From contig JBAWZF010000017.1 in the NCBI GenBank assembly GCA_037143175.1, positions 1 to 58,994 of the forward strand: DNA of 58,994 nucleotides, in the 5' to 3' direction. The position numbers and the translations under genes were made by a program. Of this stretch, positions 540-7,883 are shown one piece after another. Under the pieces are notes generated by a model. It was not told the DNA's origin, ran no database searches, and saw nothing but the letters and a program-made list of their open reading frames with translations. The stretch's first letter is position 1; every line of letters starts with the position of its first letter. This DNA comes from a bacterium. GTDB lineage: Bacteria > Verrucomicrobiota > Kiritimatiellia > CAIKKV01 > CAITUY01.

Positions 540-839
540 TCATGCGTGTGCTGCGCCAGCGTGCAATTCCAACCCTAGGGCACCCATCACTTTGAGAATC
601 GTATCGAAGCCGGGGCTACGGTCACCAGATAATGCTTTATACAAGCTTTCGCGTGAAAGGCCGGTATCCCGGGCCACCTGTGTCATACCCTTGGCACGCG
701 CAATGTCGCCGAGTGCTTTGGCAATAAATGCCGCATCGCCATTGGCCTCTTCCAGGCTGGCTTCAAGATAAGCGGCCATTTCTTCGGGAGTCCGGAGGTG
801 TTCGGCCACGTCATAGCGGCTGGTTTTTGTTTTACTCAT
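540..839 (-). CDS. Antitoxin of a RelE/Gp49-type pair (HigA/HI1420-like, helix-turn-helix)
   Basis: This 99-residue protein matches the addiction-module antidote family typified by HI1420: an N-terminal segment (AEHLRTPEEMAAYLEASLEE), then a Cro/C1-type helix-turn-helix (GMTQVARDTGLSRESLYKAL) and SPGFDTILKVMGALGL. Antitoxins of this family bind the toxin and the shared promoter. It lies 8 bases downstream of the toxin gene, the toxin-first order typical of HigBA-like pairs. A decayed second copy of the same gene lies at 5880-6085, in front of the long comEC copy. Confidence 0.88.
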   Translation of the reverse strand: MSKTKTSRYDVAEHLRTPEEMAAYLEASLEEANGDAAFIAKALGDIARAKGMTQVARDTGLSRESLYKALSGDRSPGFDTILKVMGALGLELHAGAAHA

Positions 840-847
840 ATTCTCTC

Positions 848-1144
848 CTACAGGTTCCGTGCGAGATGTAGTGCGGTCTTAATAACAGAGGTTTGAGTTC
901 GTTTGTCACCACCGGCCAGAAGAATAAACAAATTCTGGCCCTGTCGAATAAAGTACACTCTATACCCTGGGGCGTAATGGACCCGTAATTCTGAAACTCC
1001 TTCGCCAACTGGTTTGACATCACCAGCGTTTCCAGTAGCAAGCCACTCGATTCTTATCTGAACGCGAGCTCTACCTCGAATGTCGCGCAGGTCGTCCAGC
1101 CAACGGGTGAAGACTTCTGTTTTCCGTATTTCGACTCTGTTCAT
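848..1144 (-). CDS. RelE/Gp49-family toxin (HI1419/HigB-like)
   Basis: A 98-residue protein with the Gp49/HI1419 layout: an N-terminal TEVFTRWLDDLRD segment, GDVKPVGEGVSELRVHY, then GYRVYFIRQG and LLAGGDKRTQ near the C-terminus. These are conserved across the family, whose members are ribosome-dependent mRNA interferases. An upstream ATG would give an N-terminal extension of 41 residues unlike the family, so I start at 1144 (ATG, MNRVEIRK). It precedes its antitoxin by 8 bases. In the second copy of this region (6097-6130) most of the toxin is gone. Confidence 0.87.
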   Translation of the reverse strand: MNRVEIRKTEVFTRWLDDLRDIRGRARVQIRIEWLATGNAGDVKPVGEGVSELRVHYAPGYRVYFIRQGQNLFILLAGGDKRTQTSVIKTALHLARNL

Positions 1145-1282
1145 AATAGTAGCCTTGGGGATACACTTCGTCAACTCTGGTATTTCAACTGCACATAACC
1201 AAAAGAGGTTTTGACAGAGCAAAACCCTCCATTGAAAAAATGGAAGGCGCCGCTCTGTCGGCGCCACAGGTCGCGAAGCGGA

Positions 1283-2095
1283 TCATTCCTCTCCTTCAGT
1301 AAGTTGGATTGGTTTTTCCTTGGTATAAACCCAGATGGCGAAGCGGGTGATGATTAAAACTCCGTAAAACACCAGAGCGGCCCAAAGAGGCACGGGCGGG
1401 GCTTTCATGAATCCATGCGGGATGGCGGCAAACCATCTGGCGGATTCGGTCATCAGGACGATCAAGGCCAGATTGGCATGATTGAATAGGTCGGCAAAGA
1501 ACAGCGTACAGGATCCTAGCGTGAGCGACAGTACGCCGGTGATGATGACTGAGCGAAGAGAGTGGAACAACAAGCAGGTTGGCGGGGAGGCCGATGGGGG
1601 AGAAGTTGCCAAAGAAGAGGATGGTGAGCGGCATGGTCACCAGCCAGGCGGCGAGTGAGACGGACAGTAACTCGCTGAAGCCGTGCCACAAGGAGCGGAG
1701 CCATTCCTGCCATCTGGGATCGGGTTCGAGTTTTAGGGGATCATGAGCAAAACAGCTGCGAAGCAGTCCTGAGAAAACCGGGCAGAATAACACCAACCCT
1801 AGAACGGCGATGTAAGAGAGCATGAAGCCAATGTTGATCAGGTCACCGGGTGAGATGGCCAGAATCACAATGGCAGAGGCCGCCAGGGTAGTGAAAATGT
1901 CAGGCTTGCGTCCAAGCAAAGGGCCCATCCAGAAGATAATCCCCATGATGCAGGCCCTGACGGCACTGGGCTGCATTCCGGTCATGGCGGTATAGAGGAT
2001 CAGGAGAGGCCCCAGAAAGAGCACCCAGCGGGTCCGAGGCAGACCACAGGCGGAGAGGATGAAGACCAAAGTGCCTAAAATGATGACCACGTGGA
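1283..2095 (-). pseudogene. comEC 3' fragment, truncated and frameshifted paralogue
   Basis: This stretch corresponds to roughly the last 275 codons of the longer comEC-like gene at 6225-7883, at high protein identity (for example TRWVLFLGPLLILYTAMTG in both). Alignment by eye shows an extra base near 1553-1560, after the LLVVPLSSL codons, which shifts the frame; the tail (VLSLTLGSC onward) continues in another frame. The 5' part is missing: similarity ends near 2095, where the long copy reads into the conserved ISGSH region. It is probably not functional as a DNA-uptake channel. It is important as a control, because it lacks the 69-bp palindrome present in the long copy. Confidence 0.88.
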
Positions 2096-2194
2096 TGCTT
2101 ATTATAAGCTCTATAACACATGGAATGTGAATAGCGGTATTATAAACATTGGGTGCAATGAAGGTGGGGATAGGTTGGGGTGGGAATGAATAAA

Positions 2195-2268
2195 GATGAC
2201 TGCGCGGTCATTTATGAGAGTGGCAAAAGTTTGGGTAATGGCTAAATGCAAACTCAGTTTGGATTATG
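2195..2268. repeat. Direct repeat, copy 1 (left border of S8/PEP-CTERM cassette)
   Basis: GATGACTGCGCGGTCATTT followed, after about 31 extra bases, by GCAAACTCAGTTTGGATTAT. The same two blocks, fused without the spacer, recur at 5838-5877. The second block contains the small palindrome CAAACT-C-AGTTTG. Confidence 0.75.
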
Positions 2269-2594: not shown

Positions 2595-4967
2595 ATGAAA
2601 AGTAGTAACAGAATTTGGAAGTGGGTTAGTTTGATATTCGTGGCCTTCAACTCAAGTTTTCTTTATGCGGAGACCGTAACCCCCGCGAGCTATACTGATC
2701 CGGTAAATACACTTTGGATCAAGATGCACGATGCGGGCATGATTAACGATGTGGAACTTCAATCGGCGCTAACGACTGGTCGCTTGCCTGGTGGTAGCAC
2801 GGTTCAAAATTCTCCTATACCAAAAGAAAACCAGTCGTCGCTGACGAAGCTTTGTGATCAGAAAGTCATCACAGCTCAGGAATTAGCGTACCTTCTTTTT
2901 AAAGGCCAGATTCCTGAAATGACGGCCGATGAAACTAAAGCGTTTCAAGATTTGGCAAAAGTTTATCAACCGGATCGTAAGAAACGTCTGACCTACTTTA
3001 TCCGTCGATCGCATGAGAAAGTGGGATTAATCCGTCTAAATAAGCGATCTACTATAGAATGTAAAAAGGATCATGACGAAGCGGTTGCCCGTGCCACAAA
3101 AGAGGGGTTGGAAATTCGCGGAAAATCAAAAGACGGCCGAGTATATGAATTACACCGCTATGATCATGATATGCCTTTATATAACATTACGTTCAATAGG
3201 ATATCAGCGCAAACTATCGCCACAGATAAGGCACGTCCGGGTGGAAGTAGCCCTTTTGAACTGACCGGCACCAATGTAATTGTTGCAATGTGGGATGGTG
3301 GATTGGTATTGACAACGCATCAAGAGTTCGACTCCGCCAGAGTTGCCGATATGGATAATGGCATTATTATTGACCATTCGACAATGGTTGCAGGAACTAT
3401 GTCGGCAAAGGGAGTCGACACCAACGCTCAGGGAATGGCTTATTCCGCCAAGGTTTATTCATTTGACTGGAATTTCATTATTCCAGAAATGAGCGGATTG
3501 GTCGTAAGTAATCCCAATGTTCAAATTTCCAATCATTCTTATGGTTTTGTGGCTGGGTGGGACAATGCGAATTGGTTCTATTATGTTCCTCGGTGGTGGG
3601 GAGACTCCCGGTTGAGTGAGGAAGAAGACAATCACTTTGGTTGGTATAATGCAGATTCCAAACAGATGGATGATTTCTGCTATACAGCCCCTTATCATCT
3701 ACCGGTTTTTGCTGCCGGAAATGACAGGGCAGAAGTTCATCAAGGTGGTTTATTGGGAATGCTGTATCCGACGCATGGTGTTTGTGATTATTCGAATGGG
3801 TACTGGCATAATTCTAGTACGGAGCGTCCGCCAGATGGTGGAACTAATGGATATGATTGCCTCACTTCCAGAGGTGTTCCTAAGAATATTATAACGGTTG
3901 GCGCGGTTGTGGACATTCCTGGAGGTGAGACGAATTCAAGCCAAGTTAGTCTTGATTGGTACAGCGGTATAGGACCGACAGATGACGGACGTATTAAGCC
4001 GGATTTGGTGGCTAACGGTCAAGCATTGCACACAACCTCGGCGGTGACTAATGATAGCTACGCCGATCCAAGCGGTACGAGTTTTTCATCTCCATCAGTG
4101 GCAGGTTCGTTAGCGCTTCTACAGGAATTGCATGAGCGTTTTTACGGAACAAACGCTCCTATGCTGGCCTCGACATTAAAGGGTCTGGCATTGCACACTG
4201 CGGATGATGCCGGGAATGTAGGGCCTGATTACCATAATGGGTGGGGGCTAATGAACACCGAGCGGGCGGCTTGGGTCATTACGAATAATGCCACATGGGA
4301 TTCAATGCCGCACATCAAGGAAGTGAGTTTGGTTGATGGCTCCATGATTCAGTTTGGAACATTAGCTCAGACGGGCACCCCACTCGTAGTGACTATTTGT
4401 TGGACTGATCCAGCGGGGCCTGAACAACCATGGGCGCTAGATCCAACAAACCTGACTCTTGTTAACGATTTGGATTTGCGGGTGATTTCTCCTGATGGGA
4501 CAATTACTAATTTCCCATGGTTACTTGACCCGCTTCAACCCAGTTTAATCGCGACGAATGGTGATAATTTCCGGGATAATGTTGAGCAGGTTTTAATTAA
4601 CGAGCCGACCAATGGATGTTATACTGTCACAGTGATGCACAAAGGTAGTTTGAGCAATGGCGTGCAAGATGTCTCGATTATTGTCACGGGAAATACGCCG
4701 ACGAATGCACCAGATTTTGCTATTACAACCATGGGGGCGCTTGGTGATAGTGAGAATCTTTCAGAAACGAATGGCTGGATTCAGTTGTCATGGCCTGGTG
4801 TTGTTGGTGCGTTGTACCAGATGGAGTCCTGCACAAATCTGATGGAAAGCGGGAGTTGGACAAATCATGATAGCATTGTCAGTGCCAATCTTGAATCGAT
4901 GCAGTACACGGATACGAACGCATCACTTGATGTTGTGCGCTTCTACAGAGCCAAACGATTAAAATAA
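2595..4967 (+). CDS. Secreted S8 (subtilisin-like) serine protease
   Basis: A 790-residue exported protease. It has a signal peptide (about 1-25, ending FLYAE), a pro-region with two similar helical segments (about 36-66 and 81-109), a subtilase domain with D234 (VAMWDGG), H261 (HSTMVAGT) and S496 (SGTSFSSPSVAG), and a C-terminal jelly-roll of the KP-43 kind with VNDLDLRVISPDG and DNVEQVLINEP (about 570-710). The end (YQMESCTNL...W..., then RFYRAKRLK) is the beta-sandwich tail common in verrucomicrobial exported proteins. The usual HGTHVAGT around the active His reads HSTMVAGT. It is followed after 3 bases by a PEP-CTERM gene, so the two are probably co-transcribed. The pair is bracketed by direct repeats. 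Confidence 0.9.
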   Translation: MKSSNRIWKWVSLIFVAFNSSFLYAETVTPASYTDPVNTLWIKMHDAGMINDVELQSALTTGRLPGGSTVQNSPIPKENQSSLTKLCDQKVITAQELAYLLFKGQIPEMTADETKAFQDLAKVYQPDRKKRLTYFIRRSHEKVGLIRLNKRSTIECKKDHDEAVARATKEGLEIRGKSKDGRVYELHRYDHDMPLYNITFNRISAQTIATDKARPGGSSPFELTGTNVIVAMWDGGLVLTTHQEFDSARVADMDNGIIIDHSTMVAGTMSAKGVDTNAQGMAYSAKVYSFDWNFIIPEMSGLVVSNPNVQISNHSYGFVAGWDNANWFYYVPRWWGDSRLSEEEDNHFGWYNADSKQMDDFCYTAPYHLPVFAAGNDRAEVHQGGLLGMLYPTHGVCDYSNGYWHNSSTERPPDGGTNGYDCLTSRGVPKNIITVGAVVDIPGGETNSSQVSLDWYSGIGPTDDGRIKPDLVANGQALHTTSAVTNDSYADPSGTSFSSPSVAGSLALLQELHERFYGTNAPMLASTLKGLALHTADDAGNVGPDYHNGWGLMNTERAAWVITNNATWDSMPHIKEVSLVDGSMIQFGTLAQTGTPLVVTICWTDPAGPEQPWALDPTNLTLVNDLDLRVISPDGTITNFPWLLDPLQPSLIATNGDNFRDNVEQVLINEPTNGCYTVTVMHKGSLSNGVQDVSIIVTGNTPTNAPDFAITTMGALGDSENLSETNGWIQLSWPGVVGALYQMESCTNLMESGSWTNHDSIVSANLESMQYTDTNASLDVVRFYRAKRLK

Positions 4968-4970
4968 TCC

Positions 4971-5618
4971 GTGAAAATTTTTGTAATAATAGTTTTTTTA
5001 TTCCTGGTTTCGACCGGACGAATCATGGCCGACTCGGCCATTGTCTGGTCGGGGCAACAGGATATAAAAATGGGGCCAGGTGCTACTCCTGATTGGTTGC
5101 CGTCATTAGCGTGGTTACTTCTGGATATGAATGGTGACGGCAGCATGGATCTCCGCTTTGATTACGTGATGGATTTCACGGTTCAGTCTCAGAGTGGAAG
5201 TGCTGTTGCAGTCATACCCCAGCCCCCGTATTCAATATTAGATGCCGCTCCTGTTGATGCTGGCTCGATAATCGCATCAGGTAGCACATGGGGATCAGGC
5301 GCTTATCCTCTTGTGGATTGGGAGTCTATTCCTGGTGTGGGATTGATGGGTGCAGGTAGTTGGGCGTTTGTCTCAAATGGCTATATGGGTGTGAGTTTTA
5401 CTGCGGCTGACGGTATTCATTATGGTTGGGTGCAAGTATCTTCTTATAACACAATGGGTGCTCATATTAATAGCTGGGCTTATGAGAGTCAGCCGGGTGT
5501 TGGTATTGCGGCGGGTGTAGTTCCAGAGCCCTCCACGATTTCATTATTCATAATTGGAGGGTTGTCCGTTATTATTTCCGTTTGGCGACGCATGATATTG
5601 GCACGCCGTGATTCCTGA
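4971..5618 (+). CDS. PEP-CTERM sorting-domain exported protein
   Basis: A 215-residue protein starting with GTG at 4971, 3 bases after the protease stop. It has a signal peptide (about 1-20, FLFLVSTGRIMA), a beta-rich body with a calcium-like loop (LDMNGDGSMDLRFDY), and a C-terminal PEP-CTERM signal: VPEPST at 184-189, a hydrophobic helix, and the basic tail WRRMILARR. The PEP-CTERM/exosortase system recognises such tails and places proteins outside the cell in exopolysaccharide-producing Gram-negative bacteria. No exosortase gene lies in this window. The ligand or function of the body domain is unknown. A decayed copy of its central segment lies just downstream at 5657-5709. Confidence 0.85.
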   Translation: MKIFVIIVFLFLVSTGRIMADSAIVWSGQQDIKMGPGATPDWLPSLAWLLLDMNGDGSMDLRFDYVMDFTVQSQSGSAVAVIPQPPYSILDAAPVDAGSIIASGSTWGSGAYPLVDWESIPGVGLMGAGSWAFVSNGYMGVSFTAADGIHYGWVQVSSYNTMGAHINSWAYESQPGVGIAAGVVPEPSTISLFIIGGLSVIISVWRRMILARRDS

Positions 5619-5837: not shown

Positions 5838-5877
5838 GATGACTATACGGTCATTTGCAAACTGAGTTTGGATTTTG
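5838..5877. repeat. Direct repeat, copy 2 (right border of S8/PEP-CTERM cassette)
   Basis: GATGACTATACGGTCATTT runs directly into GCAAACTGAGTTTGGATTTT. It matches copy 1 at 2195-2268 apart from an internal segment of about 31 bases missing here. Confidence 0.75.
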
Positions 5878-5879
5878 CC

Positions 5880-6130
5880 CCAATGACTTATACAGGCACT
5901 CGCGTCAGGCCGGTATCTCTCGCCACATAGGGCATGCCTTTTTCACAGGCAATATCACTAAGTGCTTACGCGATAAAGGCGGCATCCCCATTGGTTTTTT
6001 CAGGCTGGCTTCAAGGTAGGCGGCCATTTCCTAGGGAGTGCGCAGGTATTTGACTATGTCATAGCAGCTGGTTTGGTCTACACATATTGTCTCTTACAGG
6101 TTCCGGGTAACGGGTGAAACCCTTTGTTTT
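5880..6130 (-). pseudogene. Decayed second HigA-like antitoxin and scar of a deleted toxin gene
   Basis: On the minus strand, bases 5880-6085 follow the antitoxin gene at about 630-839 closely, including the start codon context (CAT at 6083-6085, then the CTCTTACAGGTTCCG leader). They carry in-frame stops and length changes. The following bases join CAGGTTCCG (equal to 851-859) directly to AACGGGTGAA (equal to about 1102-1111). Hence about 240 bases of toxin gene were deleted in this copy. Neither protein can be made. Confidence 0.85.
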
Positions 6131-6224: not shown

Positions 6225-7883
6225 TCATTCCTCCCCGTCAGAAAACGGTATGGGTTTCTCCTTGGCATAAACCCAGATCGCGAAGCGGGTAATAATCAAA
6301 AATCCGTAAAATACCAGTGCCGCCCAAAGCGGGACAGGTGGGGCCTTCATGTATCCATGCGGAATGGCGGCAAACCACCTGGCCGATTCGGTCATCAGGA
6401 CAATCAAGGCCAGATTAGCGTGATTGAAAAGATCGGCAAAGAACAAGGCACAGGATCCCAGCGTGAGCGATAGCACGCCTGTAATGATGACCAGTGATGA
6501 GAGTGGGACGACGAGCAGGTTGGCGGGGAGGCCGATGGGGGAGAAGTTGCCGAAGAAAAGGAGGGTGAGTGGCATGGTCACCAGCCAGGCTGCCAGGGAG
6601 ACGGAAAATAACTCGCTGAAGCCGCGCGATAATGATCGAAGGAACATCTCCCATTTGGGATGCGGCTCGCCGACAAGCGGCGGCCCTACAGTAGAAGGGC
6701 GTCCGCTTGCGGATCGCCTCTCGACCGTGTGGGGTTCAAGTTTTAGCGGATCTGGAGCAAAAACATTTTTGAGTAAGCCTGAAAATACCGGACAAAACAG
6801 AACCAGCCCAAGCACAGCAATGTAGGAAAGGATGAATCCGATATTGATCAGGTCGTCAGGGGAAATGGCTAAAATGATGATGGCGGATGCGGCGAGCGTG
6901 GTGAAGATGTCCGGCTTTCGACCGAGTAACGGCGCCATCCAGAAGATAATCCCCATGATGCAGGCGCGTATGGCGCTGGGTTGAAGTCCGGTCATGGCTG
7001 TGTAGAGGATCAGGAGCGGCCCTAGAAAAAGCACCCAGCGGGTCCTTGGCAGTCCACAGGCGGCCAGCATGAAAATAATGGCTCCGCCCAGGATCACAAC
7101 ATGAGAGCCACTGATTGCGAACACATGAAGAGTACCTGTGTTCGCGAAGGCTTGATAAAGATCGCGCGGGATTTGGCTATAATAACCTAGCAAGATGGAG
7201 TTCAGAATACATACTTGCTCGGGGCGGTTGGTAATGCCTTGGGCCAGAAGTTTGCCTGCCCACACCCGGCCTTGAAGGCATTTCTTGATCAGGGGGTTTC
7301 CTTGCTCGTGTCCAAGCAGTTTTGCCTTTTGGGCTGACCCTGAGAAAAACAGACCGCCGGGTTTGCCTGTAAATAGACCCTGTTTGAAAACAGCCTGATT
7401 CAGATATCCCGAAAAGGTCCAGCGCTCGCCATAGGCGGGAATGCGCTCCCCGGATTCCGCGGAAAGGCGAACACGAACTTTCCCCGTGACATCCAGCCAG
7501 TCATTGGTCCGGCCGGTTCGTACCCTTTCGGCAGTTATGGGGAATTTCCATGATAACTTTCCATTTTTAGTGGTTGTGCAAACGGGCTCATCGGCAACAA
7601 TACCAGTCAAGCTTCCTCCTGCCGGTAGTTGTATGACGGCGGGGATGTTGGGGGAGGATCCAGTTATGTTGGCCGAAGCATTCGCCCAGCCGAGACAAAG
7701 CACTGTTGCCAGAGTGAGTGGTGTGGCGGGAAGTTTTGGAAGCAACGCCAGAATCAGGCCGGTGGTGGCGATCGACAAGAGTATGCCCTGGGAGATGGGG
7801 AAAGCCAGTCCGAGCCCTGTTCCGATAATAAAGAAAATGGCGATGCCAGTTAAGGGCCTGGGCGGAAGAGGAATAATAAGCAT
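6225..7883 (-). CDS. comEC: ComEC/Rec2 competence-domain membrane protein
   Basis: A 552-residue multi-spanning membrane protein with an N-terminal DUF4131-like part (about 1-190) and a Competence domain carrying the family signature HVFAISGSHVVIL (about 255-267). ComEC forms the inner-membrane channel for incoming single-stranded DNA in transformation. Full-length ComEC is typically 700-800 residues and ends in a metallo-beta-lactamase domain; that domain is absent here and is not encoded next door. Residues around 386-408 are encoded by a 69-bp in-frame palindromic insertion that the paralogous fragment at 1283-2095 lacks. The insert falls in a loop between predicted membrane segments, so the protein may still work. 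The gene stands alone; thiD follows about 70 bases upstream on the same strand. Confidence 0.87.
   Translation of the reverse strand: MLIIPLPPRPLTGIAIFFIIGTGLGLAFPISQGILLSIATTGLILALLPKLPATPLTLATVLCLGWANASANITGSSPNIPAVIQLPAGGSLTGIVADEPVCTTTKNGKLSWKFPITAERVRTGRTNDWLDVTGKVRVRLSAESGERIPAYGERWTFSGYLNQAVFKQGLFTGKPGGLFFSGSAQKAKLLGHEQGNPLIKKCLQGRVWAGKLLAQGITNRPEQVCILNSILLGYYSQIPRDLYQAFANTGTLHVFAISGSHVVILGGAIIFMLAACGLPRTRWVLFLGPLLILYTAMTGLQPSAIRACIMGIIFWMAPLLGRKPDIFTTLAASAIIILAISPDDLINIGFILSYIAVLGLVLFCPVFSGLLKNVFAPDPLKLEPHTVERRSASGRPSTVGPPLVGEPHPKWEMFLRSLSRGFSELFSVSLAAWLVTMPLTLLFFGNFSPIGLPANLLVVPLSSLVIITGVLSLTLGSCALFFADLFNHANLALIVLMTESARWFAAIPHGYMKAPPVPLWAALVFYGFLIITRFAIWVYAKEKPIPFSDGEE
6662..6730. 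repeat. 69-bp REP-like palindrome inserted in frame in comEC
   Basis: The two halves (GGCTCGCCGACAAGCGGCGG and CCGCTTGCGGATCGCC) form imperfect inverted arms around the centre CTACAGTAGAAG. The comEC fragment at 1283-2095 continues directly across this point, and the two proteins differ by exactly 23 residues, so the insertion size is deduced from the comparison. It encodes an Arg/Ser/Pro-rich stretch without stops. Confidence 0.85.

Follow-up and report, generated by a model that had tools for sequence, protein, structure and literature searches.

A probable GTAG-type REP dimer inserted in frame in comEC of an uncultivated Kiritimatiellia bacterium

The comEC gene of an uncultivated bacterium of the Kiritimatiellia, presumably from a lake, contains an in-frame insertion that very probably consists of two different GTAG-type REP units joined tail to tail. 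Such a heterodimer is a miniature mobile element of the non-autonomous kind, and it would have entered the gene after the split from relatives of the same genus. The gene lies in the window, by which we mean the whole stretch of 58,994 nucleotides that was analyzed (contig JBAWZF010000017.1). The insertion occupies positions 6662 to 6730 on the minus strand, and its 69 bp encode 23 amino acids, HTVERRSASGRPSTVGPPLVGEP, between EP and HPKW. The window genome is a fragmented draft, and the insertion is read from its assembly. Gene content hints at a position close to the PVC bacteria.

The insertion site and the other comEC copies

The host gene is a full-length comEC (6225 to 7883, minus strand), recognized from its open reading frame and translation, from Pfam and NCBIfam matches, and from the gene order argG-thiD-comEC, which the window genome has in common with the same-genus genomes G003 and G005. 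Its product has 552 amino acids, with the Competence domain (PF03772) at residues 230 to 535 according to Pfam and NCBIfam; a protein search found ComEC in 55 of 58 related genomes. Two partial copies occur in the same genome. One, at 1283 to 2105 of the window (minus strand), is 5'-truncated and frameshifted and was identified from the list of open reading frames, DNA alignment and protein search; the other, on contig C69 at 837 to 1643, is open for 268 amino acids. Neither has the insert. In the DNA alignment of the three copies both partial copies have a single 69-bp gap at 6662–6730, and the coordinates and the count of 23 extra residues given by an earlier, sequence-only reading of the window are right. 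The empty sites read GAACCC/GATCCC in the fragment and GAACCC/GATCCA in the C69 copy, and the filled site reads GAACCC-[69 bp]-GCATCCC; one flanking base differs, and the precise edges of the insertion are ambiguous to that extent.

The sequence-only reading had taken the shorter fragment as its insert-free control. The gap is clean there, but taken alone the fragment is a weak control, as it is truncated at its 5' end, frameshifted, and separated from the full gene by a dS of about 1.5, a value that also rules it out as a recent duplicate. Compared with the full gene, the partial copies have a dS of about 1.4–1.5 and a dN of 0.11–0.16; they are old homologues, and they serve here as secondary controls. 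More weight lies on the orthologues and the C69 copy than on the fragment. Because they share the argG-thiD-comEC gene order, the comEC genes of G003 and G005 are orthologues of the window gene, and their insert-free sites read GAACCCGATCCA and GAGCCGGATCCT, respectively. Among the ComEC proteins of relatives, 29 were aligned, one of which (L069) stops short of the site; none of the 28 that span it, representing many families, contains the 23 residues. Because none of the 28 relatives, the syntenic orthologues among them, and neither of the two other copies has these residues, the 69-bp stretch is a derived insertion, in frame and into a coding gene, as had been proposed, and not as a loss in the fragment. 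The sequence-only reading had named conservation of the residues in distant comEC orthologues as the sign of a loss from the fragment, and no such conservation is seen. For an ancestral presence of the residues, followed by loss from both the fragment and the relatives, we found no support, and we assign this history next to no probability: the alignment of orthologues refutes it, and what was inserted is a dispersed repeat.

A target-site duplication was considered as well. The flanks read EPH...EPH and differ at third positions alone (GAACCCCAC / GAGCCGCAT), but we treat this as coincidence because GAGCC is part of the REP (the same end occurs in L122) and because the relatives have EPDP.

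Several other genes lie near the comEC copies. A block made up of an antitoxin (HI1420 type), a toxin of the RelE/ParE family and a 3' fragment of comEC is present twice (window 540–2105; contig C69 104–1643, L075). Both comEC fragments start near ComEC residue 255 and have upstream DNA in common (TGTTTATAATACCGCTATTCA...TTATAATAAG), and the block looks as if it had been copied as a cassette. A decayed antitoxin lies past the end of the full comEC, at about 5880–6100. At 1–477 the start of the window resembles the end of a nucleotidyltransferase and is followed by a HEPN-domain gene (PF05168); in G005 an MNT-like nucleotidyltransferase is found past comEC. The nucleotidyltransferase and HEPN genes are likely a second toxin-antitoxin pair. 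Also in the window, a subtilase-family protease (2595–4967) adjoins a small secreted protein (4971–5618) with a C-terminal VVPEPSTISLFIIGGL...RR segment that resembles a PEP-CTERM sorting signal.

Two REP units and a dispersed repeat family

The palindrome proper is the core of the insert, the 55 nt at 6664–6718, in which two GTAG-tagged REP hairpins lie tail to tail with their tags facing each other. Unit A (GTAGGGCCGCCGCTTGTCGGCGAGCC; 6664–6689, minus strand) has the tag GTAG, and the tag of unit B (GTAGAAGGGCGTCCGCTTGCGGATCGCC; 6691–6718, plus strand) can be read as GTAG plus 3 nt or, at 6694, as a degenerate GAAG; in both units the stem is 8 bp long and a single base bulges out on its 3' side. 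A covariance model, built from an alignment that includes both units, matches unit A with 36.6 bits (E 2e-6) and unit B, at 6694–6718, with 32.1 bits (E 2e-5). These were the sole significant matches in the window, and the next best had an E of about 1. The window scan used model R1, in which the foot pairs are shifted by one column, and the genome searches used a rebuilt model, R2. The Rfam search returned nothing above threshold.

As single-stranded DNA the 55-nt core folds better than shuffled sequences (z about -3), and units A and B each fold as a hairpin (z about -2.6). The RNA folding check suggested by the sequence-only reading also came out in favor of structure, with a z of -2.4 against shuffles for the insert in an 89-nt context. 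The description of the insert as an imperfect palindrome holds for the core; about 14 of the 69 bp (6662–6663 and 6719–6730) lie outside it and match no repeat found. The 12 bp at 6719–6730, assigned to the insertion by the empty-site alignment, belong to neither REP unit and by inspection have no match in the flanks of other REP copies.

Before the model was built, a plain pattern search located the core of unit A at four other places in this genome: in head-to-head dimers at C3:14804, C3:32503 and C49:6719, and in a single unit at C8:6952. Control counts for the core pattern were near zero. There are 9 units of the family in this genome, 20 in G003, 18 in G050 and 10 in G047, and the family was found in 9 of 58 genomes, including others of the class. 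At 9–20 units per genome, counted in fragmented drafts under strict scan filters, this family is less abundant than REPs usually are; more than 100 per genome is described as usual, not as universal (PMC2817692). The same-genus genome G003 contains exact type-B bodies (the body of unit B is identical to its unit GTAGGGCGTCCGCTTGCGGATCGCC) and dimers in both arrangements, head-to-head and tail-to-tail, the latter with 24 nt between the partners. Like unit A, almost every other copy has the GTAG tag. In an alignment of 11 distinct units, 97.7% of the stem cells are paired. Covariation in the stem is 0.214, compared to 0.062 for shuffled alignments, is reached by 0 of 500 shuffles and drops when the partners are slid, in a small set in which six of the eight stem pairs are invariant. 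Judged by these comparisons, both units appear to be GTAG-type REPs: they combine a hairpin, the GTAG tag, dispersal with compensatory stems, and dimers of opposite orientation, both head-to-head and tail-to-tail.

The head-to-head dimers end in GTAGGG...CCCTAC and in this resemble short inverted-repeat elements, so that one could take the element not for a REP but for a miniature, MITE-like form of some classical DDE insertion sequence whose terminal inverted repeats are GTAGGG. We consider this very improbable, given that each unit is itself a hairpin that occurs singly and in both dimer orientations, that by inspection no target-site duplication surrounds the head-to-head dimers, and that the units in comEC are arranged tail-to-tail. 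A somewhat less remote, though still unlikely, alternative is that recombination or template switching copied a REP-containing stretch into comEC, and that no discrete element was transposed. Such copying would account for the roughly 14 non-REP bp that came along and for the end on the side of unit B, which is off the REP boundary; against it, several genomes have REP dimers repeatedly as discrete units whose flanks are unrelated. Insertion of a REP dimer as a discrete element remains the reading that we favor.

Repeats of other kinds were seen in passing. Two copies of the palindrome GCAAACTNAGTTTGG lie in the window (2248–2262 and 5857–5871), where 0.01 would be expected by chance, and each is close to a second palindrome, ATGACNNNNNGTCAT, noticed by eye. 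A long GC-rich palindrome (TTTGGAGTGCGGCGGCTTGACGCCGC...) at 3059–3170 of L004, with an inverted copy at 9–87, seems to represent a further family of repeats in this genome.

Mobilization and other copies inside genes

The REP dimer may have moved as single-stranded hairpin DNA, and the enzyme that moved it would be an HUH/Y1 (RAYT-type) transposase whose gene lies at another place in this genome or in that of a relative. In E. coli, the GTAG tag is essential in the REP substrates of TnpA-REP, and irregularity of the stem matters (PMC8266576). Since the units described here have GTAG and an irregular stem, as TnpA-REP substrates do, a TnpA-REP-like enzyme is the best candidate for the mover. 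Four Y1_Tnp genes are present in this genome; the model nearest to them is REP_Tyr_transpos, and all four fall below its curated cut-off. The fetched flanks of 34 Y1_Tnp loci from nine genomes contained no REPs of the comEC-insert family, and because no RAYT gene was flanked by the same REP, we do not class the element as part of a REPtron. Two RAYT-like genes of this genome are flanked by inverted terminal repeats with the core GGGTCAGCCCTTA (L004 807–839 and 1906–1938; L007 806–824 and 1909–1927), which are unrelated to the GTAG repeats; inverted-repeat-bounded transposases resembling these two have been described as TIR-associated (PMC3733652).

The comEC event is not unique. A GH2 glycosidase gene of G003 carries a head-to-head dimer in frame, and at exactly that place about 40 residues are missing from a homologue in G003 itself (C353). 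The family probably also lies in frame in two genes of G029. In one of them, which encodes an E2 acyltransferase, a unit falls in the linker that joins the lipoyl domain to the E3-binding domain and reads VGPPLTGEP compared to VGPPLVGEP in comEC; since this linker is variable, also in a paralogue without the unit, the E2 case is at most consistent with insertion. In the other, a unit is located between two sulfatase-modifying-enzyme domains of a sulfatase-modifying-enzyme-like protein. Further candidates were set aside. The REP-spanning open frames in L123, L119, L174, L181 and L109 and an N-terminal extension in L105 were judged unreliable, as the evidence for them goes no further than open-frame overlap, and in L124 the REP is upstream of an SDR domain, probably ahead of the real start. 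One might extrapolate from comEC, GH2, E2 and the sulfatase-modifying-enzyme-like gene to a class-wide REP lineage without a linked transposase that repeatedly enters genes, is kept as in-frame loops or linkers, and forms a recurrent source of new protein loops; we put this forward as a speculative and rather doubtful generalization.

Consequences for ComEC and relation to known REPs

The reading frame stays open across the insert, whose length is a multiple of three and which has no stops in four of its six frames. The 23 residues are hydrophilic and lie inside the Competence domain, between the hydrophobic segments 343–376 and 424–445, at a site that is variable in sequence among homologues. 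From its sequence, the host comEC looks like a working gene. Structures of ComEC have been solved (PDB 30bt, 9vc6). Relative to the orthologues its dN is low, with dS near saturation, and the low dN mostly reflects the period preceding the insertion. The insert may persist through the combination of a length divisible by three, four stop-free frames and a peptide tolerated as a loop, and the function of ComEC would be unchanged or altered just slightly. Retention for a function of its own, as an RNA hairpin that tunes comEC expression or as a peptide that alters ComEC, is compatible with a REP origin. The stable fold is in line with this idea, and RNA roles have been suggested for REPs near gene ends (PMC3733652), but the insert is found in this genome alone, in a variable loop, and shows no sign of conservation, and we think it quite unlikely that function explains its presence.

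The principle of GTAG REPs inside genes is already published, and the comEC insert is a new documented example. Di Nocera, De Gregorio and Rocco (2013) described 24 GTAG families with head-to-head and tail-to-tail dimers and heterodimers; in-gene GTAG REPs are commonest in Opitutus terrae, over half of them being dimers or groups that encode 20–30 residues, and the tail-to-tail partners of GTAG-19 in that species are 1–2 bp apart (PMC3733652). By description, the comEC insert is like these in its tag, in the kind of dimer, in the spacing and in the length of the peptide that it encodes. It differs from the O. terrae type in its host gene, in its occurrence in an uncultivated, presumably lake-dwelling bacterium and in the low copy number of its family. 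With the REP/BIME sequences of E. coli and their TnpA-REP (RAYT) it shares the GTAG tag, an irregular, imperfect stem and alternating unit orientation (PMC8266576). Unlike those, the comEC family has a different stem and a loop of 4–5 nt, and no linked RAYT gene was found. The REPs of E. coli are chiefly extragenic.

The sequence-only reading had likened the insert to Rickettsia palindromic elements (RPE). Both are in-frame palindromes in coding genes that add a peptide in a tolerated region, and the analogy is apt as far as the effect goes, namely that a palindrome is translated and the peptide sits in an exposed loop; it does not extend to the family, which is that of a GTAG REP dimer, and the REP nature and the other copies had been missed. 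The highest number of intragenic CGTC repeats has been attributed to R. conorii, including RPE-4 and RPE-6 (PMC3733652). As these in-gene elements are counted as CGTC-type and the comEC element is GTAG, the two are set apart by tag class.

Together, the syntenic orthologues and the insert-free copies provide a clean before-and-after pair for the insertion of a REP inside a gene. The case adds an uncultivated lineage, and among genes the competence gene comEC, to the known range of GTAG-REP dimers inside genes. It would allow a direct test of how a membrane channel copes with a loop that mobile DNA encodes.
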